Shown here piece after piece: positions 3,515 to 20,528 of a stretch of 27,336 bases of DNA. Position 1 is the first letter of the stretch. Every line of letters starts with the position of its first letter. The position numbers and the translations under genes are program-made. The notes beneath the pieces were generated by a model. That model was given only the letters and a program-made list of their open reading frames with translations, had not been told where the DNA came from and searched no databases. The stretch comes from a virus. The stretch spans positions 8,952 through 36,287 of the IMG/VR virus record IMGVR_UViG_3300000563_000010, one strand, 5' to 3'.

Positions 3515-3578
3515 TGCGATACCATGTTCATCAATAGTGTAAGTTATTTTCATAATGGTTGGTTTTGTGTTAATATTA

Positions 3579-3620
3579 GACTGGGGTTGAATTTTCAGGG
3601 TGTTCAACTCCAGTCTTCTT
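3579..3620 (+). terminator. Candidate terminator after the portal gene
   Basis: GACTGGGGTTGAA (3579-3591) pairs with TTCAACTCCAGTC (3603-3615): 13 pairs with one G-T wobble and an 11-base loop. It is followed by TTCTT. This is the strongest hairpin in the 122-base gap between portal and protease. The T tract is short and interrupted, so termination may be partial. Confidence 0.55.
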
Positions 3621-3636
3621 ATTAAATCATTAAATC

Positions 3637-5091
3637 ATGAAAAAACCCAAATCTCAAATGGATATTGTAATTTGTAATGCGAGTCATGCTATTGTTCATT
3701 CCAATAAAAGAGAAAAAACACCCAATTCGGAATTTGTAATAGATCCTAATAAAGAGGTTAAAGTAGACCATTCTAAATTTGGTTTATTTAATGTTACTGC
3801 ACCCAATATGAATACCTACTATCCCGATGTGGATGAAGGAGATATTAATCCCGGAGAAGGGGATTTTATATATCCGGTATTCAGATTACTTTCAGAGGTA
3901 GTAGTCAACAAAATGTTTAGCCCCATTGATTTTAGAAGGAACGATGTTCTGAAAAACTCAATGCACCTTTTAATAGGTCAGACAGTTTATACAGAACATG
4001 AAGATATTATTGGGAATCATGTGGGTGTGGTTCAGGATGTGTTTTGGCAAGATGCATATACTGCAAACGGAGTTAAAGTACCTGCGGGTATTAACGGAGT
4101 AATTAAGATTGATGCTAAAGCCAATCCTAAAATTGCTCGGGGTATTTTACAAGATCCTCCAGCTATTCATTCAGTTTCAGTTTCTGTTTTATATCAATGG
4201 GATAAATCTCATGATATGCCAGATGATGAATTCTATGGTAAATTGGGAACATTTGATGATAAAGGTAATTTAGTTCGTAAAATTGTTTCTGATATTGTTT
4301 TATATTCGGAAACATCTCTTGTACCACATGGTGCAGATCCTTTTGCTCAACTATTGAACCCCGAAGGAAAAATTCACAATACTACTTGGGCTAAGAAATT
4401 TTATTCTATCGGCGGAGATAAATTTACTGCCGTGGATTATAAACTATTGCCTAAAGGGAATTTGGAGGTCGAGATTAGTAAATTTAATCTAAATAACCCT
4501 AATAAAAACAAGACAAATATGGATTTTTTAAACAGTTTAGCTAAACTTGTGGGATTTGAAGGGGAAATCACTGAGTCAAATCAGGATAAACTCAAATCTC
4601 ATATTGATCAGCTTATCAAAGAAAACCTCCAAAATGAGCAGGATTATGCCAAGGAGATCAATGTTTTGAAAGCTGAAAAGGACAAACTGCAGGAATCATT
4701 AACTGAGAGAACAGATGAGCTTACTGTATTAAAGGAGAATGAGACCTTTATTAAAGTTGGCAAGAATCGTCTCACTGAGTTAAGGGATGAAGCAGTTAAT
4801 GCATACACTCTCTTAAAAGGAGAAAATAAAGATGAGAAGATTATTAATCTCATTCAAAGGGCGGATCTGGAAACAGTTACTTCCTTGCTTAAGGATTATA
4901 AGACTGATCTGGAGAAGCTTTCACCTCTTACTTGCCAAGATTGCAAGTCTGTCAATATTTCAAGAGCTTCTGCTGCTGAAGAGTCAACAGAAGGTGGAGA
5001 AAACGGACAACCTAAAATTAGGACCAATATGGAGGTTGTTGCCAATCGCCGGAAGCGACATCTTTCTACTAAAAGGTTACATGGCGAATAA
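3637..5091 (+). CDS. Prohead maturation protease fused to capsid scaffold
   Basis: The N-terminal part (about residues 40-260) looks like a herpesvirus/HK97-type prohead protease. YTEHEDIIGNHVGVV contains the candidate catalytic His (H121) and IHSVSVSV the candidate Ser (S181 or S183), with the usual spacing of about 60 residues. The C-terminal part, from about residue 295, is a charged, coiled-coil-rich region (KENLQNEQDYAKEINVLKAE and following) of the kind that forms the internal scaffold and is digested at maturation. The gene lies between portal and capsid genes. An in-frame ATG at 4519 (M295) starts exactly at the scaffold domain. A CQDC motif near residue 432 is unexplained. The total of 484 aa fits a protease-scaffold fusion. 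Confidence 0.8.
   Translation: MKKPKSQMDIVICNASHAIVHSNKREKTPNSEFVIDPNKEVKVDHSKFGLFNVTAPNMNTYYPDVDEGDINPGEGDFIYPVFRLLSEVVVNKMFSPIDFRRNDVLKNSMHLLIGQTVYTEHEDIIGNHVGVVQDVFWQDAYTANGVKVPAGINGVIKIDAKANPKIARGILQDPPAIHSVSVSVLYQWDKSHDMPDDEFYGKLGTFDDKGNLVRKIVSDIVLYSETSLVPHGADPFAQLLNPEGKIHNTTWAKKFYSIGGDKFTAVDYKLLPKGNLEVEISKFNLNNPNKNKTNMDFLNSLAKLVGFEGEITESNQDKLKSHIDQLIKENLQNEQDYAKEINVLKAEKDKLQESLTERTDELTVLKENETFIKVGKNRLTELRDEAVNAYTLLKGENKDEKIINLIQRADLETVTSLLKDYKTDLEKLSPLTCQDCKSVNISRASAAEESTEGGENGQPKIRTNMEVVANRRKRHLSTKRLHGE
4519..5091 (+). CDS. Possible nested scaffold protein from an internal start
   Basis: ATG at 4519 lies in the frame of the protease gene, preceded by A-rich ACAAGACAAAT, and would give a 190-aa protein, MDFLNSLAKLVGFEGE onward. 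Internal scaffold starts of this type are known, for example lambda Nu3 inside gene C. Here the ATG falls where low-complexity linker (NLNNPNKNKTN) gives way to the helical region, which fits an independent product. This is inference: no ribosome-binding motif can be used as proof in a genome that lacks Shine-Dalgarno sites. Confidence 0.35.
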   Translation: MDFLNSLAKLVGFEGEITESNQDKLKSHIDQLIKENLQNEQDYAKEINVLKAEKDKLQESLTERTDELTVLKENETFIKVGKNRLTELRDEAVNAYTLLKGENKDEKIINLIQRADLETVTSLLKDYKTDLEKLSPLTCQDCKSVNISRASAAEESTEGGENGQPKIRTNMEVVANRRKRHLSTKRLHGE

Positions 5092-6800: not shown

Positions 6801-6824
6801 TTCCCCTTTGGTATAAATAAAGTT

Positions 6825-6867
6825 ATAAGTGGTAGCCGGGATTAACTCGGCTACTATTTATAATTTT
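6825..6867 (+). terminator. Candidate terminator after the major capsid gene
   Basis: ATAAGTGGTAGCCGGG (6825-6840) pairs with CTCGGCTACTATTTAT (6846-6861): 16 pairs including three G-T wobbles, around an ATTAA loop. It is followed by AATTTT. The centre of the stem is G/C-rich, unlike the surrounding sequence. It probably limits read-through from the capsid gene into the less abundant head-completion genes. Confidence 0.6.
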
Positions 6868-9915: not shown

Positions 9916-10152
9916 ATGGCTAGAGTTGAAAAACGTCGTATTAAATTTGAATTGCCTATTATGAAGCCTACTACAGCTCCTGCTTCAAAAGAGGAATCGA
10001 AAAAAGAGGAAAATAAAAAAGGTTATAAACTAGTTCCTCGGTCAACTAAAGGTTGGTGGGATGTAGTGAATACTTCGGGTGAAGTGTTAAATGATAAAGC
10101 ACTTAGAAAACAGGAAGCACAGGTTGTAATGGATAAGTATGCTGTTAAATGA
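9916..10152 (+). CDS. Small basic protein of unknown function
   Basis: The 78-aa product is not recognised. It has a short N-terminus (MARVEKRRIKFELPI), a disordered Lys/Glu linker (about residues 20-34), and a compact C-terminal part, GYKLVPRSTKGWWDVVNTSG followed by EVLNDKALRKQEAQVVMDKYAVK. The last segment looks like a small folded unit with a beta hairpin and a helix. It lies two bases after the tail-completion gene, and its stop overlaps the start of the ATP-grasp gene (ATGA). It could be a minor tail protein or belong with the sugar genes. Confidence 0.55.
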   Translation: MARVEKRRIKFELPIMKPTTAPASKEESKKEENKKGYKLVPRSTKGWWDVVNTSGEVLNDKALRKQEAQVVMDKYAVK

Positions 10153-10967
10153 CGGAATTAGAAAAGTCTATAGCCCATTCTAAACATAGGCTAGGTTATA
10201 CAATAGATTTGGATAATCCCCAATCTCTTAGTGAGAAGGTTATTTGGCGAAAACATTTTTGTAGGAATCCTTTAATGCCGGTTACAACTGATAAGGTTAA
10301 AGCAAAACATTATTTATCAAACCTTATCGGAACTGATTATTTAATTCCCACGCTATTAGCCACTGACAATCCGGATGAGATTGATTTTGATAGTTTACCC
10401 GATAACTATATAATCAAACCTAATCATACTTCTGGACATTGGCATATTGTAACACAAGGCAAAGCCGATAGGAAAGAGATAATTAAAAAATGTAAGGCTT
10501 GGTTAAAAAGGTGTTACGGTAAAGATAAATTTGAATGGCACTATTCTCTTATAAAACCTCAGATTATAATCGAGCCTTTATTGCTTGATGATCGAGGTAA
10601 AATGCCTTTGGATTATAAATTTCAGGTATTAAATGGAAAATGGGAATGGTGTTATGTTTCTACACCAAGGAATAAGGGATTTAATATACATGGCAATTAT
10701 GATACAAACTGGATTAAAATGGCTATGTATGGAAGAATGGGACCTTGTAAACATTTTGTACCAAAACCCAAGAATCTGGATTTAATGGTAGAATTGGCAG
10801 AGTTATTAGCCGAGCCATTTGATTATTTAAGGGTAGATATGTATCTGATTAATGATAGGTTATATATGGGTGAATTAACTCATTTTCCTTCATCAGGGTT
10901 TTTTGGATTTAGTCCTATAAGCTTCGATTTTGAAGCAGGTAAAAAATTGATAAGTTATCACCGATAA
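10149..10967 (+). CDS. TupA-like ATP-grasp protein (surface-glycan type)
   Basis: The 272-aa sequence follows the TupA-like ATP-grasp family (Pfam TupA_ATPgrasp), which occurs in polysaccharide and teichuronopeptide synthesis loci and is predicted to join a carboxylate to an amine using ATP. Visible hallmarks are SLSEKVIWRKHF near the N-terminus, DNYIIKPNHTSGHWHIV (K90 candidate ATP-binding lysine), IIIEPLLLDDRG (139-150), DYKF (155-158), YLRVDMYL (D230) and GELTHFPSSGF (E242); the last two acidic residues are the expected metal ligands. Length is normal for the family. It is embedded between tail-completion and sheath genes and overlaps the glycosyltransferase at TAATG, so the two probably act together. 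Whether the acceptor is a virion protein or a host glycan is unknown. Confidence 0.8.
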   Translation: MTELEKSIAHSKHRLGYTIDLDNPQSLSEKVIWRKHFCRNPLMPVTTDKVKAKHYLSNLIGTDYLIPTLLATDNPDEIDFDSLPDNYIIKPNHTSGHWHIVTQGKADRKEIIKKCKAWLKRCYGKDKFEWHYSLIKPQIIIEPLLLDDRGKMPLDYKFQVLNGKWEWCYVSTPRNKGFNIHGNYDTNWIKMAMYGRMGPCKHFVPKPKNLDLMVELAELLAEPFDYLRVDMYLINDRLYMGELTHFPSSGFFGFSPISFDFEAGKKLISYHR

Positions 10968-11689
10968 TGCTTAAAATAGTTTGCTTTAAATGGAAATATA
11001 AAGAGGGATATAAGTTAGCCTCTCTTAATAATATCGAGAAATATACTGCTACCCATGTAAACAAATTATGCAAGGCCGTAAAAAAGAATTTAAGTATACC
11101 CCATGAGTTTATATGTATTACGGATGATGCAAGAGGATTAAGATGTAAATCTATACGTTTGTGGGATAAATGTATGGATTATGGAGGTTGTTATAACCGT
11201 CTTTACGTTTTTAGTAAAGATATGAAGGAATTAATTGGTGATAGGTTTATTTGCATAGATTTAGATATGGCTATAGTGGGTCCTTTGGATAATTTATTTG
11301 ACCGGGATGAAAGCTTTATTATAAACCAATTTTACGGTAAACATTTAAATCAGTATTATAACGGGGCTCTTTTTATGATGGATGCCGGAGCTAGAGATAG
11401 AGTCTGGTCTGAATTCGAAAAAGATATTCCCGGTAATATTGAAAAACTCATTAAATTAAAAAAGCAAAGAAAATACTTGGGTACCGATCAAGCTTGGATT
11501 AGTTATATTTTGGGAATTGAGGAACCCTTATTTACTATTGACGATGGAGTAATACCCTATTACTTATTACCAAAAAATGATAATAAGGTATATATACCTG
11601 ATTATGCTACAATAATTAATTTTGCTGGGAGACAAGATCCCAGCAATCATAAGGACAAATGGGTAAGAGATTACTGGGATAGCCTTTAA
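10967..11689 (+). CDS. Glycosyltransferase, GT-A fold
   Basis: The 240-aa protein has a GT-A organisation. An N-terminal strand, MLKIVCFKWK, and a nucleotide-binding region lead to the DxD motif in FICIDLDMAIVGPLDNLF (D98-x-D100), which binds the metal and the sugar-nucleotide phosphate. YYNGALFMMDAG (130-141), GTDQAWISYIL (172-182) and a late IINFAGRQDPSNHKDKW follow the pattern of GT8-like enzymes, where the late His may also bind metal. It should transfer a sugar from a nucleotide donor; donor and acceptor cannot be read. It is coupled to the ATP-grasp gene and followed by 52 A/T-rich non-coding bases before the sheath gene. A role in decorating tail or capsid proteins, or in altering the host surface, is inference. 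Confidence 0.82.
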   Translation: MLKIVCFKWKYKEGYKLASLNNIEKYTATHVNKLCKAVKKNLSIPHEFICITDDARGLRCKSIRLWDKCMDYGGCYNRLYVFSKDMKELIGDRFICIDLDMAIVGPLDNLFDRDESFIINQFYGKHLNQYYNGALFMMDAGARDRVWSEFEKDIPGNIEKLIKLKKQRKYLGTDQAWISYILGIEEPLFTIDDGVIPYYLLPKNDNKVYIPDYATIINFAGRQDPSNHKDKWVRDYWDSL

Positions 11690-13246: not shown

Positions 13247-13711
13247 ATGGCAAAAGTTTCGAATCCTCGTAAACAATTTAAGTACTCCATTAGGATAATG
13301 GGTGGCTTAGGACTTGATCCGTGGCTTGTTCAGGAAGTGGATCACCCTGAAGAAGATGTTGAACCTGTACCTCATGGTGATGCGAATTATGATGTTAAAA
13401 CTGCAGGTAGGGTGATAATAGGTAATGCTACTATTAGCAAAATATCTCGAACAAGCGGACCGGATAACTTTCTCGTAAACTGGAGAAAGATGTGCCAGGA
13501 TGAATTATCTGGTGGTGGTCAAATACCTGATGTATACAAAAAGACAGTCATTGTCGAAGAGTATGCCGAAGATGGATTTACCATTATCAATACTTCAGTT
13601 TGGTATGGCGCTTGGCCTACTAAGGTTAATGTTAAATCACACTCTCGTATTGGTTCTGAAAATACAGTAGAATCTTTTGAACTTTCAATAGATGCGGTAG
13701 ATAAGTACTAG
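13247..13711 (+). CDS. Tail tube protein
   Basis: The 154-aa protein follows the sheath, as in contractile tails, and has the size of T4 gp19-like tube proteins. It is beta-rich: FKYSIRIMGGLGLDPWLVQE, then GRVIIGNATISKISRTSGPD, KTVIVEEYAEDGFTIINTS and a final WYGAWPTKVNVKSHSR plus SFELSIDAV. The pattern 'ATISKI..TSG' and the closing 'E-S-F-E-L-S-I-D' strand are characteristic of this fold. It forms the hexameric rings through which DNA passes. A G/C-capped hairpin follows the TAG stop. Confidence 0.85.
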   Translation: MAKVSNPRKQFKYSIRIMGGLGLDPWLVQEVDHPEEDVEPVPHGDANYDVKTAGRVIIGNATISKISRTSGPDNFLVNWRKMCQDELSGGGQIPDVYKKTVIVEEYAEDGFTIINTSVWYGAWPTKVNVKSHSRIGSENTVESFELSIDAVDKY

Positions 13712-13793: not shown

Positions 13794-14618
13794 ATGGAAA
13801 ATCAGAGAAAGAAGTTACCTTTTACTCAGAGAGAAGATCAACACCCTTTATATGGAAGGGTTGCTGATTTATTATTACCTTCAGGTTATAAGGTAACTAT
13901 AAGAGAGCAGGATGGTGGTGATGATGATGTTATATCTTCATATCTTTCTCAGGATGATATGACAGGTCCCATTAATCGTTTTTTAGCAGGATTAATTATT
14001 GGTCATGATTTTGATTTTTTGCCCAAGAAGAATGTTGTTAAACCCGTAGAAATTAGGGATTTGCTTTTAAGGGATAAGTATTTTATCTTAATGGCTTCCC
14101 GTATATTTTCTATAAGTGAGTCTATTATTTTTAATTGGGATTGGAAAAACGGTAAACCGCCTGTTAGTTATGAGGAAGATTTAGTTCCTTATCTTTGGGA
14201 TTATAATAAACCTTTTCCGGAACCAGGTACACCTGGGTACTTTAAATACATGATTGAACCGTATCCGGAGAAACAAGTTAAAACTCGAGAGTTAGAGTTA
14301 TCCAAAGAAAAAAGACTCCGTTATGGTTATCTCGATGGTCACGGGGAAAACTATTTAATGAAGTTATCAGATAGTGAGAGAAGTATTAACTCAGGTCTTA
14401 AGGCTAGAGGTATTGAAATATTTGATAACAATGAATGGGTGCCTATTAAAAACTTTAAAGGTTTTAAGACTTGGGAGATGGCAAAAATAAGGGATGATGT
14501 CGATAAATTTGATAAGCAATTTGATGGTATGACAGATATAAAAAATCCTCATACCAATGAAATAGTATCTATCCCCTTATTGTCAATAACGGATTTTTTC
14601 TTTCCACGGGAAATATAG
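13794..14618 (+). CDS. Tail assembly chaperone, zero-frame product (gpG-like)
   Basis: The 274-aa protein lies between tube and tape-measure genes, the position of the tail assembly chaperone that binds the tape measure and recruits tube subunits. The sequence has a beta-rich start (LYGRVADLLLPSGYKVTIRE), an acidic DDDVISSYLSQDD segment, a helical middle (EIRDLLLRDKYFILMASRIF) and ends SITDFFFPREI before TAG. The family is not obvious from motifs. The role is supported by location and by the frameshift signal six codons before the stop. Lambda gpG and gpGT are the well-known parallel: most ribosomes make the short form, and a few shift to -1 to make the long form. Confidence 0.75.
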   Translation: MENQRKKLPFTQREDQHPLYGRVADLLLPSGYKVTIREQDGGDDDVISSYLSQDDMTGPINRFLAGLIIGHDFDFLPKKNVVKPVEIRDLLLRDKYFILMASRIFSISESIIFNWDWKNGKPPVSYEEDLVPYLWDYNKPFPEPGTPGYFKYMIEPYPEKQVKTRELELSKEKRLRYGYLDGHGENYLMKLSDSERSINSGLKARGIEIFDNNEWVPIKNFKGFKTWEMAKIRDDVDKFDKQFDGMTDIKNPHTNEIVSIPLLSITDFFFPREI

Positions 14619-14758
14619 AATGGGAGTATTTCTATGTTTCCCAGTTTAGTTTACACTTTACTTTTTCCGAATTTAAAAGCTTTCCTGTTTCTCGTCGACA
14701 AAAATTTATAGATTTTGCCGATGAAGAAAATGAAAGGAATAAAAAAGCCCTTAAATGA
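13794..14758 (+). CDS. Tail assembly chaperone, -1 frameshift fusion (gpGT-like)
   Basis: This is the join of 13794-14600 with 14600-14758 (base 14600 read twice). After the T TTT TTC slip, the -1 frame adds 52 residues, LSTGNIEWEYFYVSQFSLHF and onward to ENERNKKALK, before TGA at 14756-14758, giving 321 aa in all. The added domain is aromatic-rich and then charged, as expected for a T domain. The whole extension is open without a stop. Its TGA overlaps the tape-measure ATG at 14755 (ATGA), so shifted ribosomes end exactly at the next start. The product depends on frameshifting but has textbook sequence support. Confidence 0.8.
14594..14642 (+). promoter_or_regulatory. Programmed -1 ribosomal frameshift signal
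   Basis: Slippery heptamer T TTT TTC at 14594-14600 is in the correct phase: zero-frame codons TTT (14595) and TTC (14598), both re-pairing as Phe after a -1 slip. A 7-base spacer (TTTCCAC) leads to a stem-loop. GGGAAATATAGAA (14608-14620) pairs with TTCTATGTTTCCC (14630-14642), 13 pairs with one T-G wobble and a 9-base loop. The zero-frame TAG lies inside the stem at 14616-14618. Confidence 0.85.
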
Positions 14759-16878
14759 TTCTTAGTGCTGCTGCTGGTGCATCTTCTGGAGCTGTTGTAT
14801 CTGTAGGTCTAGATATATATGCAGTTAATAATTTTTCTGGTCCTGCGGCTCAAGCTGGAATGTCTCTTAAACAACTACAAAGTGAGTTTAGGAGAACGAT
14901 GTATGAGAACTTAAGGGTTGCTCGTAATATGTATGGGGGTATGGCTGCAGCAGGAGCCATACTAACTCGAGGTATGCATAACCTTTATAGAAGGTTTGCC
15001 GATTTTGATTATATGATGGTTGGTACTCAGGTGGTATCTCGAGCCACTGAGGAGCAATTAGGGGATCTTAGAAATGAGGCACTTCGTTTAGGTGAAACTA
15101 CGATGTTCTATGCCGATGATATTGCCAATTCTATGAGGGAGATGGCAAAATCTGGTATGGAAGTGGATGATATAATGAATAATATCCGAGCCTCTGTTGC
15201 AGGTGCGGGTGCTTCGATGGAAGGTTTGAATGTTACTACAAAAGCCATTATTTCTACATTAGCTCAGTTCCAAATACCTAGTGAACATGCTATGGATGTA
15301 ATGGATAAAATTGCTGCTGCTGCACTGGGTTCTAAATCCACAATAGGTCAATTATCTGATGCGTTAAAATATTCTGCCGCTGACTTCTATGCCTTGGGTA
15401 TACCTCTAGAAACTGCCCTTGGTATGTTAATGACAATGCATAACTTCGGTATTGAAGCCAGTATGGCTGGTACTGCTATGGGTAATGCGTTGAGGTATAT
15501 GGCGAAAGCCCAGTCTCAGTTAAGAACAGGGAGGCAGGCTGCTGCTCTTGATATATTCGGTTTAACTGAACATGATTTCCAAACCCCGGCAGGGGATTTC
15601 AAGGAAATGGTGGATGTATTTGGTATTCTGGCTGAAAGGATTGCAGAATTGCCTACTATTAGAGGTCAGGTTGCAATGGAGGCGTTATTTGGGATTAGGG
15701 GTAAAAGGGCAGCCTTTCCGATGGCAGCAGCAACAGAACAGGTAGCAAGAAATATTGAGAGGGTGGCTAATTCCGCAGGTATGGCTCAAGAGAACCTGGA
15801 GAAAATGATGGACACTCCTCATGGTGATTTTCTGAAAATGGTTTCCGCTTGGAAAACTACTGCCATTGCTCTAGGTTCTGCTTTAGAACCCGCATTTAGG
15901 ACAATGCACCAAGTATTGAGAGGTTTAGGTCAGGCTATAACATGGGTTACTCAAGCCCGAGCAGGAAATGTTGCTGCTGAAATATTCAAATATATAGCAA
16001 GCGGTTTAGCCCTATTTACTATGATTAACACTGTTGTATTCGGTATAAAAGCCGCTGCAGCTGGTGTTATGATGATGATTACCAGTAATCGTATTAGTTT
16101 TGCTAATATGAATAGGTCTATGGCTACTGGCTGGGCAATGCTTAAGCAAAGAGCTATGGGTTATAAACATGTGGTGGATGGTATTACCGTTAGCCACATG
16201 AGATTAGCTTCTGCTCAATTAGTATCTACTGCAGGGGGTATGAGAATGATCGGAGGCCACGGTTTAGTAGGAACCGCTTCAAGAACGGGTATAGGTTATA
16301 CAGCTCATGGTAGGCCTTATACTCGTTATCCTATGAGTGATATTTCTACTCGCCGAACCTATGCGGCTAATCGGTTTATACCTTTTAGAATGGCTCCGGG
16401 TATGGGTGGTCGAGGTTTAGGTCAAGGGGCACTTCAACAAATGCCAGCTCAACATGCTAAAAAAGGAATTCTTGGTGGTTTATTAAAAGGCACTGGAGGA
16501 GCTTTAGCTAAAGCAGGTGCTTTCTTAATGGGATGGAAAGGTTTAGTAGCTTTTATGTTACTTGGTCCTGCAATATCCGGTTTAACTCGAATAATAAGAG
16601 GTAATACTCGAGCAGTAGAGGAAAACACAAGAACTCAAAGGGATTATGCTTCTCATCCTTATAGAGTATTACCTAGATATGATGAGGAATTTTTTAATAG
16701 GAGTGATTTAATTGAAAGGCTATTAGCTAGGGAACAAGTTAGAACTGAATTGGCAGGTGGTACCTTAGATGTTAAAGGTAAAAAGGTGGATGTGATATTT
16801 AATGTTGATGGAAAGAATATGGTAAGGACAACAGTTGATGAAAGGACTGCTTCTTCAATGTATAAATTAGGATTGTAA
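14755..16878 (+). CDS. Tail tape-measure protein (TP901 type)
   Basis: The tape measure sets tail length and leaves the tail on injection. Residues about 70-340 match the TP901 tape-measure core: FDYMMVGTQVVSRATEEQLG, ALRLGETTMFYADDIANSMR, EMAKSGMEVDDIMNNIRA, then long Ala/Met-rich helices with GIPLETALGMLMTMHNFGIE and LFGIRGKRAAFPM. Two hydrophobic segments (about 414-442 and 597-611) may cross the host membrane. At 707 aa it is short for a myovirus; at about 1.5 angstroms per residue this would give a tail of roughly 100 nm. Its ATG overlaps the stop of the frameshifted chaperone. The mid-to-late part is Gly/Arg-rich and less regular. Confidence 0.88.
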   Translation: MILSAAAGASSGAVVSVGLDIYAVNNFSGPAAQAGMSLKQLQSEFRRTMYENLRVARNMYGGMAAAGAILTRGMHNLYRRFADFDYMMVGTQVVSRATEEQLGDLRNEALRLGETTMFYADDIANSMREMAKSGMEVDDIMNNIRASVAGAGASMEGLNVTTKAIISTLAQFQIPSEHAMDVMDKIAAAALGSKSTIGQLSDALKYSAADFYALGIPLETALGMLMTMHNFGIEASMAGTAMGNALRYMAKAQSQLRTGRQAAALDIFGLTEHDFQTPAGDFKEMVDVFGILAERIAELPTIRGQVAMEALFGIRGKRAAFPMAAATEQVARNIERVANSAGMAQENLEKMMDTPHGDFLKMVSAWKTTAIALGSALEPAFRTMHQVLRGLGQAITWVTQARAGNVAAEIFKYIASGLALFTMINTVVFGIKAAAAGVMMMITSNRISFANMNRSMATGWAMLKQRAMGYKHVVDGITVSHMRLASAQLVSTAGGMRMIGGHGLVGTASRTGIGYTAHGRPYTRYPMSDISTRRTYAANRFIPFRMAPGMGGRGLGQGALQQMPAQHAKKGILGGLLKGTGGALAKAGAFLMGWKGLVAFMLLGPAISGLTRIIRGNTRAVEENTRTQRDYASHPYRVLPRYDEEFFNRSDLIERLLAREQVRTELAGGTLDVKGKKVDVIFNVDGKNMVRTTVDERTASSMYKLGL

Positions 16879-17455: not shown

Positions 17456-17706
17456 GTGCATATAATAATTTTACGATTGCTCGTTTTAAAGATGGTGAGT
17501 TATCATTAGATCGTCGAGTATTTAATTATAGACCTTCATCTAATGATAAATTTCATACGGTATTAGAAGGAGAAAGACTTGATTCTATTGCATATAAATA
17601 TTATAAGAATTCTACACTCTGGCATATAATTGCTGATGTTAATGTTATAACAAATCCTTTTTCGATAGAGCCCGGTGATGAATTAGTAATTCCTGCATTG
17701 ATATGA
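17452..17706 (+). CDS. LysM-domain baseplate protein (gpX-like)
   Basis: The 84-aa protein carries a single LysM fold at about residues 32-82. HTVLEGERLDSIAYKYYKNS is the first helix region, WHIIADVN the second, and NPFSIEPGDELVIP the closing strand. This matches small tail proteins such as P2 gpX and the LysM part of T4 gp53, which sit at the baseplate hub and bridge other subunits. It overlaps both the upstream and the downstream gene by four bases (ATGA). Confidence 0.85.
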   Translation: MSAYNNFTIARFKDGELSLDRRVFNYRPSSNDKFHTVLEGERLDSIAYKYYKNSTLWHIIADVNVITNPFSIEPGDELVIPALI

Positions 17707-20528
17707 CAAGCACAATAAATCCGGAAGGTTATGGAGCCCCAATAGTGGGGCTTTTTGATACCAATGGTAATTATCTATCCTTTGCTAGTCTTGGGTATGA
17801 ACCTGATCATGATCAAACAAGGGAGAAGGCTCATCAAATATCTAGTTGTGATTTGTCTGATGATGAGGAAGAAGGTATTGAAATGATCCTGACAATTGAG
17901 TCAGAGGATATTAATTTTATTGATAGTGATCATTTTCAATATGGCAATATGATCGTAATCAGGTATGGTTATATTGCTGAAGATAGGATTTTCTTTGGAA
18001 GAGGGTATTATCTGGTTGTTAAGGATTTTAGGGCAAAGTATGCTGATAATATTGAATTCACTTTAATATTAGTGGATCAGGTTACCTTTGCCAGTAGTGA
18101 TAGGGATCAAAGTGAATCACAACAAATACTTGATAGGGTAGAAGATGCTATTGTTTCCTCAGAGGGATTGAATTTAAGTGTAGAGGAATATAATGAGTAT
18201 ATAAGTAAACATGATGATGCAGCTACATTAAAAATCAATCTGAATGAGTTATTTATGGAACTCAATAAGATAAGAGCTAATTTTAAAGAGAGGTCTGGAG
18301 AATATCTTATAAAAGTACCTGTAGGAAAAAGATACCATGTTTCATTGGGTGTAAATTTTGGATATTTATCTTTTAACACTGTTAGTGAATTTAAACAGTT
18401 TTTCTCAACTCATGAAGCTAGGGATGCTTATAATTTACCTTTGGGAATAAGAAATATACTGGCTAAAGGTACTGATGAACAAATATTTAATGAGTTTGCG
18501 ATATTAAGGTCTGAAGCAGGATGGTGGTTAAGACATTCAGTTGTTACACGTTTTCCCCGAGATGCAGTGGATTTATATGGATTTACTATAGACTCTCACC
18601 ATAACCGTAATATCACAAGAGGTGAGGAGAGATGGTGGGATATGTTAAAAGAGGTGGGTTTTTATGAGAAATTAAAGGAACATAAAAATCTGTATGGCCG
18701 ACCCAATCAAAGTATATTATATGATGATAAGGGTAATTTTGATCCGGATAGATTAGATGCCTTTATTCAGAGTATATTGGACAATCGGGCTTGGGATTAT
18801 GTACAAGCTGATATGAATAAATCGGGTTATGAAAACCTTAGAACTTATTTAAGGGAAAGATTTGGCGATGTTAATATTTCAGATACTGCTGAAGATTTAA
18901 GAGGACCTCGATTAAGAGAAAGAAATTTAGATAGACCCCCTTATATGGACCTCCATTTTAAAGGGACAGATGATCTATTAGAAATTGACTTTGAAACTAA
19001 TTTTGAAGAATCCGAAGTTGTACAATCTGAATCTGTATCTGTAAATCCCGAAACAGGGGAATTGGTTAGTATGACTCAACTACATAGTAATCAAACGGGT
19101 AATCAAAATCCGGATAGGGTTGCAAGATATGTAGATGGAGCTATTAAGGATATTCAGGAAGGTAAAGAACCAAAGCCTTTAGAAAATTTCAGTCAATTAG
19201 TAATGCCGGGCTTTAGATATGATACTGGTACTCACTCGTATCAAGATAAGGACGGTAATTATGTATCAGGTGTTGATCATACTCGGGTAGTTAAAAAATT
19301 GCCTACTACTATATTTTTATCTTCACCTATTACTTTAGATGAAATAAAAGAGGAAATAGATAGCAGAAGAGCTGATGATAATCTTAAAAGGATAACTGCT
19401 TATGCCCGATTATTGGGTAATCCCTTTATTTCTTCAGGTATGGTTTTTAGAGTATCTGGAGTTGCAAAAAAGTTTGAAGGATTATACTATGCTTTAGAGG
19501 TTAGACATAAAATAGATTCTCAAAATGGTTATACTACAGAACTTGACCTTGGTAAAATACCTATTCAAACTGTTAGAGGTGTTATTGTAGAATTTAGAGA
19601 AGAGGAAGATGTTAACGTTACTAAAAAAGGGTGGGTAATAAAAGGTTCTCGTTTGGTTCAAATTGATTATCATGGGAATGAAATACAATCCCATAATGTA
19701 GAGCCAATGGCGGATAATCCAAATGTTTATAGATTTGTTGACAGGTTATCACCTTGGTTCTGGGATGATCAAGAAGGTATATTTATCCCAGCAAACTTTC
19801 TCAATAATCATTTATTCAAGGATCCTAATGAGAAATTTAAAGATTATGATATATTAGAAAGTATACAGCAAAAAAAGGACAGACAGTTTTATATTGATTT
19901 ATTTGGTTATGATCCGGATAAACCCATTCCTATGGATCTTCAATTATCTGAGGAAGGTCATATAGTGGATGTCGGTATAAAGAGATGGAGGGATGATCAA
20001 AGAATTGAAGATCAAGATTACAGACCCACTATAGATCCTGGTGAATATCCCATAACTGTTTCACCTGAGGAAATGGAGACTTTTCTTCGAATGAGTAATA
20101 AAGGAATACATATTTATATAAGGAGAGAATACCACCTGCCCGAAAAAAGATTATCGGATGGTACTATTGTAAGTGCTCGAGTTGCAGGCACTGCTCAGAT
20201 ATGGGAGGACAATGAATTATTATATACTTTTAAAACACTGGAGTTACCTTGGAGAAATAATCAAAGATATATTAGTTGTATACCTAATGGTAGATATAAA
20301 GCTAGCCCCGGTTTTTCTAGCAGTAAAGGTCAAATCATTAGATTACATGATGTACCGGATAGAGAAGGTATATTAATACATACAGGTAACGGACCTGATG
20401 ATTCCCAGGGATGTATATTGGCTGGTACTGGGTTTGATGGTAACTTTATTTTATTAGGATCCATTAATGCTATGAACAATATAATGAAATTAGTGGATAG
20501 AAACCTTTATATAACTATAATAGGATGA
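17703..20528 (+). CDS. Baseplate hub protein (gpD/gp27-like) with C-terminal DUF5675 domain
   Basis: The first 150 or so residues (MTSTINPEGYGAPIVGLFDT, ISSCDLSDDEEEGIEMILTI, MIVIRYGYIAEDRIFFGRGYYLVV) follow the late-control gpD/gp27 hub fold that makes the tube-like hub above the spike. The middle contains charged insertions including RSEAGWWLRHSVVTRFPRDA and a WWDML segment without recognised function. From about residue 800 a DUF5675-type domain begins: LELPWRNNQRYISCIPNGRY (846-865) and GILIHTGNGPDDSQGCILAG (889-908, H893 and C904). The His, Ser-x-Gly-Cys arrangement recalls L,D-transpeptidases of the YkuD fold, suggesting action on peptidoglycan at injection. The 941-aa length is large for a hub and reflects this added domain. 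Catalytic activity is inference. Confidence 0.75.
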   Translation: MTSTINPEGYGAPIVGLFDTNGNYLSFASLGYEPDHDQTREKAHQISSCDLSDDEEEGIEMILTIESEDINFIDSDHFQYGNMIVIRYGYIAEDRIFFGRGYYLVVKDFRAKYADNIEFTLILVDQVTFASSDRDQSESQQILDRVEDAIVSSEGLNLSVEEYNEYISKHDDAATLKINLNELFMELNKIRANFKERSGEYLIKVPVGKRYHVSLGVNFGYLSFNTVSEFKQFFSTHEARDAYNLPLGIRNILAKGTDEQIFNEFAILRSEAGWWLRHSVVTRFPRDAVDLYGFTIDSHHNRNITRGEERWWDMLKEVGFYEKLKEHKNLYGRPNQSILYDDKGNFDPDRLDAFIQSILDNRAWDYVQADMNKSGYENLRTYLRERFGDVNISDTAEDLRGPRLRERNLDRPPYMDLHFKGTDDLLEIDFETNFEESEVVQSESVSVNPETGELVSMTQLHSNQTGNQNPDRVARYVDGAIKDIQEGKEPKPLENFSQLVMPGFRYDTGTHSYQDKDGNYVSGVDHTRVVKKLPTTIFLSSPITLDEIKEEIDSRRADDNLKRITAYARLLGNPFISSGMVFRVSGVAKKFEGLYYALEVRHKIDSQNGYTTELDLGKIPIQTVRGVIVEFREEEDVNVTKKGWVIKGSRLVQIDYHGNEIQSHNVEPMADNPNVYRFVDRLSPWFWDDQEGIFIPANFLNNHLFKDPNEKFKDYDILESIQQKKDRQFYIDLFGYDPDKPIPMDLQLSEEGHIVDVGIKRWRDDQRIEDQDYRPTIDPGEYPITVSPEEMETFLRMSNKGIHIYIRREYHLPEKRLSDGTIVSARVAGTAQIWEDNELLYTFKTLELPWRNNQRYISCIPNGRYKASPGFSSSKGQIIRLHDVPDREGILIHTGNGPDDSQGCILAGTGFDGNFILLGSINAMNNIMKLVDRNLYITIIG

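Follow-up and report, generated by a model that had tools for sequence, protein, structure and literature searches.

A candidate −1 frameshift signal with a partly conserved stem-loop in a T4 gp26/gp51-like tail assembly chaperone gene of uncultured phages

Frameshifting in tail assembly chaperone genes is classical and well known. Lambda gpG attaches to the tape measure protein, and gpGT, a longer form made by −1 frameshifting (Xu, Hendrix & Duda 2004, cited in PMC5009743), contacts the tube protein through its T domain (PMC5009743). A review of the T4 tail counts gp26 and gp51 among the hub assembly chaperones and does not place gp51 in the particle (PMC3004832). That T4-like gp26/gp51 act as chaperones has been published (Vladimirov, Gautam & Davidson 2022, doi 10.1016/j.virol.2021.11.003, cited in PMC12846349), so this link is not new. 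Gene 17.5/17.5* of SPP1 carries an annotated UUUUUUC slip site (PMC6316719), and the tail chaperone locus of phage Adele (Vandenendeviridae/Andersonviridae), also contractile-tailed, has a slip site of the poly-T type and keeps its −1 frame open across relatives, features recognized by the same comparative logic as the signal described here (PMC12846349).

We analysed a 27,336-nucleotide stretch (the window) of a 36,287-base IMG/VR virus record. Like lambda G/GT, its chaperone locus has a short form and a predicted frameshifted long form just upstream of the tape measure gene. The heptamer and stimulator of G/GT differ from those of the window, and no G/GT family appeared in Pfam or PHROG scans of the window. 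An earlier note on this DNA cited lambda G/GT for tail chaperone frameshifting; the homologous family is that of T4 gp26/gp51 (PF12322, PHROG 150/634), with which the window protein shares its fold and co-linear homology across the fusion, and whose genes likewise adjoin the tail tube gene. With SPP1 the window has in common the identical UUUUUUC heptamer, a predicted −1 shift and its location in a tail chaperone gene, whereas SPP1 is a siphovirus of a Gram-positive host, and the passages of PMC6316719 drawn on here mention no stimulatory stem for 17.5. The Adele motif reads GTTTTT, with no stem described in the passages of PMC12846349 that we used.

The chaperone gene and its family

The window encodes terminase, portal, major capsid protein, sheath, a T4 gp19-like tube, the chaperone, tape measure and a baseplate protein with a Phage_base_V domain; judged by this gene content, the module is that of a contractile tail. 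The chaperone gene and its two neighbours are as follows.

13247..13711, + strand: tail tube protein (T4 gp19-like), upstream neighbour (Pfam PF06841 1.4e-06; PHROG tail tube)
13794..14618, + strand: zero-frame tail assembly chaperone gene, short form, remotely T4 gp26-like (ORF; 35 related contigs; AlphaFold2 model; BFVD matches)
14755..16878, + strand: tail tape measure protein (Pfam PhageMin_Tail 4.6e-31; PHROG tape measure 8.8e-44)

The gene lies between tube and tape measure genes, as expected of a G/GT-type chaperone, and its sequence predicts two products by frameshifting. Its protein gave no match above threshold in Pfam or PHROGs, PF12322 and PHROG 150 included. Among 28 homologues, nine weakly matched PHROG 150 ('baseplate hub', best 4.6e-6) and five weakly matched PF12322 ('T4 bacteriophage base plate protein', best 2.5e-4). 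An AlphaFold2 model of the chaperone (mean pLDDT 89.5) retrieved T4-like baseplate hub assembly, gp26 and gp51 models from BFVD with Foldseek (probability 1.0, named matches with E down to 1.7e-10). Searches of the PDB with the same protein found nothing by fold and nothing credible by sequence.

Profile–profile comparison agrees with the fold. Aligned by hhalign, the window-family fusion and the gp26–51 fusion share 272 co-linear columns (probability 96, E 4.9e-9), and the two phenylalanines of the slip site fall opposite one another; a reversed control gave 0.1 and 30 shuffles gave at most 1.7. Significance was reached only with the gp26–51 family profile, comparison of the window family with single T4 gp26 or gp51 sequences being non-significant. 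The −1 extension alone found no convincing profile match to the gp51 tail (probability 6.8%), as it is too short and divergent. T4 gp26 and gp51 are paralogues, both in PF12322, and the extra C-terminal part of gp51 matches PHROG 634. In both families the long form equals the short form plus a C-terminal domain, which the window family would add by frameshifting. On these profiles and the predicted model, we place the window protein, as a distant member, in the T4 gp26/gp51 family of tail assembly chaperones. Its earlier designation as a tail assembly chaperone is thus supported by the order tube–chaperone–tape measure, by the AlphaFold/Foldseek matches and by full-length gp26–gp51 profile homology, and a protein without a name in Pfam or PHROGs can be assigned a function.

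T4 uses two paralogous genes where the window has one gene with a predicted frameshift. Other T4-like phages are closer: of 21 T4-like gp26 genes that we read (from cyanophages and others), 18 end in an in-phase T6 heptamer 0–3 nt before the stop, and 17 of those 18 have a −1 frame that continues without a stop into the gp51 domain. S-RIM2 and HTVC008M are examples, their gp26 genes ending in a T6-based heptamer with gp51 in the −1 frame, like the window. The window family differs in its longer distance from heptamer to stop (15 nt, against 0–3 nt) and in that some of its members share a conserved 3′ stem. At the gp26 loci of L049, L050 and L052 to L066, gp51 is annotated as a separate ORF of 45–60 aa or omitted; the heptamer suggests that these annotations should be joined as gp26–gp51 fusions. 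Synechococcus phage S-SCSM1 (L048, 3175–3374) is a separate case: its gp26 ends in TTTTTTC and its gp51 ORF lies in the +1/−2 frame, unlike all other cyanophages read; a −2/+1 shift, independent initiation of gp51 or an indel in the deposited sequence may explain this.

Anatomy of the candidate signal

The zero-frame gene runs from ATG 13794 to TAG 14616–14618 and encodes 274 aa ending D-F-F-F-P-R-E-I-stop. The elements at its 3′ end are listed below.

14594..14600, + strand: slippery heptamer U UUU UUC (sequence; T6-based heptamer in 34 of 36 contigs; codon-usage test)
14601..14607, + strand: 7-nt spacer (of equal length in every relative with the full stem)
14608..14642, + strand: stimulatory stem-loop, predicted (fold; covariation; synonymous-recoding null)
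14616..14618, + strand: zero-frame stop TAG, within the 5′ arm of the stem (sequence)
14600..14758, + strand: −1 frame extension, 52 codons plus TGA (translation; homologous −1 extensions in all relatives)

The earlier note had claimed each of these elements from the letters alone, and each was recovered: the heptamer T TTT TTC base for base and in phase (zero-frame codons GAT TTT TTC), the 7-nt spacer, the 13-bp stem with its 9-nt loop, the stop inside the stem and the 52 open codons of the −1 frame. The stem comprises 13 uninterrupted pairs, one of them G-U, between arms at 14608–14620 and 14630–14642, with the loop at 14621–14629. Folded as a single sequence it reaches −19.3 kcal/mol (z −3.4), and 1 of 200 shuffles was equally stable. 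The −1 frame reads from CTT (14600) to AAA TGA (14756–14758), its stop overlapping the tape measure start at 14755 (ATGA). Translation bears out the 321-aa size given for the fusion, whose predicted junction is DFF-LST, that is ...SITDFF-LSTGNIEWEYFYVSQ....

Such a combination is unique among the heptamers of the window. Its 28 genes contain 58 in-phase X XXY YYZ heptamers, and only the one at 14594–14600 has a long −1 continuation past the zero-frame stop, the runner-up extending for 16 codons. Only five stems on the + strand of the 27-kb window pair perfectly over 13 bp or more with loops of 3–12 nt, and the one in the chaperone gene begins exactly 7 nt past that sole heptamer, inside the 5–9 nt expected for a 3′ stimulatory RNA structure.

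We consider it very probable that this one gene gives rise to two chaperone forms by −1 programmed ribosomal frameshifting. Most ribosomes would stop at TAG 14616 and release the 274-aa short form. With tRNA-Phe in both P and A sites on U UUU UUC, the hairpin 7 nt downstream would hold the ribosome, allowing a minority to re-pair one base back and continue past the stem in the −1 frame; the minor 321-aa form so made would gain a C-terminal domain of 52 aa. If lambda G/GT is a guide, the short form may coat the tape measure protein, and tube subunits may be recruited by the long form. Frameshifting at this locus, its rate and the division of labour between products are what we infer from sequence and analogy. 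An upstream Shine-Dalgarno stimulator is unlikely, because Shine-Dalgarno-like leaders precede only 3 of the 28 window genes and are absent family-wide.

Conservation of heptamer and stem

Relatives were collected from annotated phages, IMG/VR and species genomes, giving 36 distinct contigs (window included) that hold the gene end. The earlier note had proposed related phages as a check, and for heptamer and open frame the check is favourable. A homologous −1 extension of similar length is found in all 36, down to about 30% protein identity, and a T6 heptamer is kept in 34: TTTTTTC in 33 and TTTTTTA in L040, where the second residue is altered and the slippery pattern preserved. The stop lies 15 nt past the heptamer (as TAG or TAA) in most relatives too. 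Across 33 distinct genes the first phenylalanine codon is always TTT and the codon before it always ends in T, although TTT makes up as little as 14–33% of overall phenylalanine usage in some of them (log10 P about −13, with genes treated as independent). The heptamer is damaged in L034 (TTTTTAC) and L043 (TTTCTTC), in both of which the −1 frame is still open and homologous; assembly errors or another slip mechanism may account for these two. A diverse, uncultured, contractile-tailed phage group can thereby be added to those with predicted tail-chaperone frameshifting.

Conservation of the stem, the other half of that check, proved mixed. At the window's pairing positions all 13 pairs form in the window (and its near-identical L012), L011, L023, L028 and L031; 12 form in L040, 11 in L017 and L019, and 10 in L024, L036 and L038, while L026 and L027 have two helices with an internal loop (11 pairs). 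About a dozen divergent relatives thus share the stem, and compensatory changes are seen among them: A-U becomes G-C in L011 and, on a separate branch, in L038, and G-C becomes A-U in L028, L031 and L040. Every relative that keeps the full stem also keeps the 7-nt spacing from the heptamer. The stem is missing from L021, L025 and L029 and from a gut-phage branch (L002, L003, L007, L008, L009 and L013). Carriers and non-carriers are interspersed in the protein tree. Because part of the family lacks the stem, it cannot be a strict requirement there, and by these comparisons the heptamer is the constant part of the signal and the stem a lineage-dependent enhancer.

Covariation was scored on 15 sequences, a stem-bearing group chosen after looking, against a shuffle control that leaves shared ancestry in: two-sided changes occupied 9 cells, compared with 4.4 in the shuffled sets, 4 of 500 of which scored as high, and the covariation score was equalled in 1 of 500. 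In the same 15 sequences, 84% of cells were paired, compared with 33–65% in slid versions. RNAalifold, run on 15 mixed sequences, preferred a weak hairpin involving the slip site itself (−1.6 kcal/mol); given so negligible an energy and a set that mixes stem-bearing with stem-less members, we discount it.

The stem could instead be a by-product of the protein sequence encoded in the −1 frame, without RNA function, the heptamer alone being what matters. Several relatives without a stem do retain heptamer and extension, and coding constraint by itself produces many pairs. We therefore compared 28 sequences, a set not picked after looking and including all those that share the same spacing, with synonymous recodings confined to the codons past the stop, since these also encode protein. 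For the window alone the recoded mean is already 11.5 of 13 pairs, and its single-sequence energy is marginal (P 0.05); the signal sits in the set. Jointly, the 28 sequences have 257 paired cells against a mean of 236, exceeded or equalled in 0 of 5000 recodings, and their summed folding energy lies at z −6.5 (0 of 1500). Third codon positions differ by 38–81% between stem carriers while the pairs are retained, so these pairs were not simply inherited unchanged. Taken as a group, the remaining 16 sequences show no significant folding excess (z −1.6). A by-product stem is accordingly improbable, and the comparative evidence shows selection acting on the stem at the RNA level in a subset of relatives.

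Conserved spacing and covariation also bear on transcriptional slippage, in which the polymerase would add a U on the T run and produce a mixed mRNA population, with the ribosome not involved. The heptamer is itself a run of six T, and runs of at least that length persist in nearly all relatives. Six T is, however, short for efficient transcriptional slippage, and a conserved 7-nt spacer with a covarying stem at ribosomal distance is not needed for it, making this explanation very unlikely. That the downstream ORF starts independently, as in phages with a separate gp51 such as T4 itself, or T4-like Cygsa01 with its short ORF and overlapping ATG start, is scarcely credible here, where the window's −1 extension contains no ATG, GTG or TTG codon and the heptamer is kept in nearly every contig.

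Ribosomal frameshifting remains our preferred reading, and what is least ordinary about the signal is its conserved 3′ stem. Searches of an open-access library found no tail chaperone gene described as having a covarying 3′ stem, which does not prove that none has been. Tentatively, and as a possibility that we rate below an even chance, the ratio of chaperone forms may be set by a hairpin under selection that has been gained, reshaped or lost among branches of an uncultured contractile-tailed clade almost devoid of Shine-Dalgarno leaders, with the heptamer constant. If true, these phages would offer a natural series relating frameshift efficiency, stem stability and tail architecture. In any case, with genes that have the stem aligned to genes that lack it, one can now test what a 3′ stimulator does in a phage chaperone.

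Host clues and neighbouring features

Near-absence of Shine-Dalgarno leaders is typical of Bacteroidota-type hosts, so a Bacteroidota host, as the earlier note supposed, is plausible from the window's gene starts, which do not by themselves point to a particular host. Presence of the stem does not correlate with absence of such leaders among the family, as the whole family lacks them. Two relatives lie in metagenome-assembled genomes (MAGs): L012 (PWOA01000087.1), a 99.8% identical contig in a Candidatus Cloacimonadota MAG, and L013 (CANQPD010000018.1) in a Dysosmobacter MAG. These placements may hint at hosts, or the phage contigs may be mis-binned; among 99 Cloacimonadota genomes searched, the only match was in that same MAG, which gives no host link.

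Elsewhere in the window, a TupA-like ATP-grasp gene (PF14305, 2.3e-34) and a following gene without a Pfam match, possibly a glycosyltransferase, occupy 10149–11689, inside the tail module and ahead of the sheath gene. A 941-aa tail protein at 17703–20528 ends in a DUF5675 domain (1e-22). Very stable, perfect intergenic hairpins at 6819–6867 (22 bp, after the major capsid gene) and 3578–3616 (15 bp, before the gene at 3637) are probably transcription terminators.
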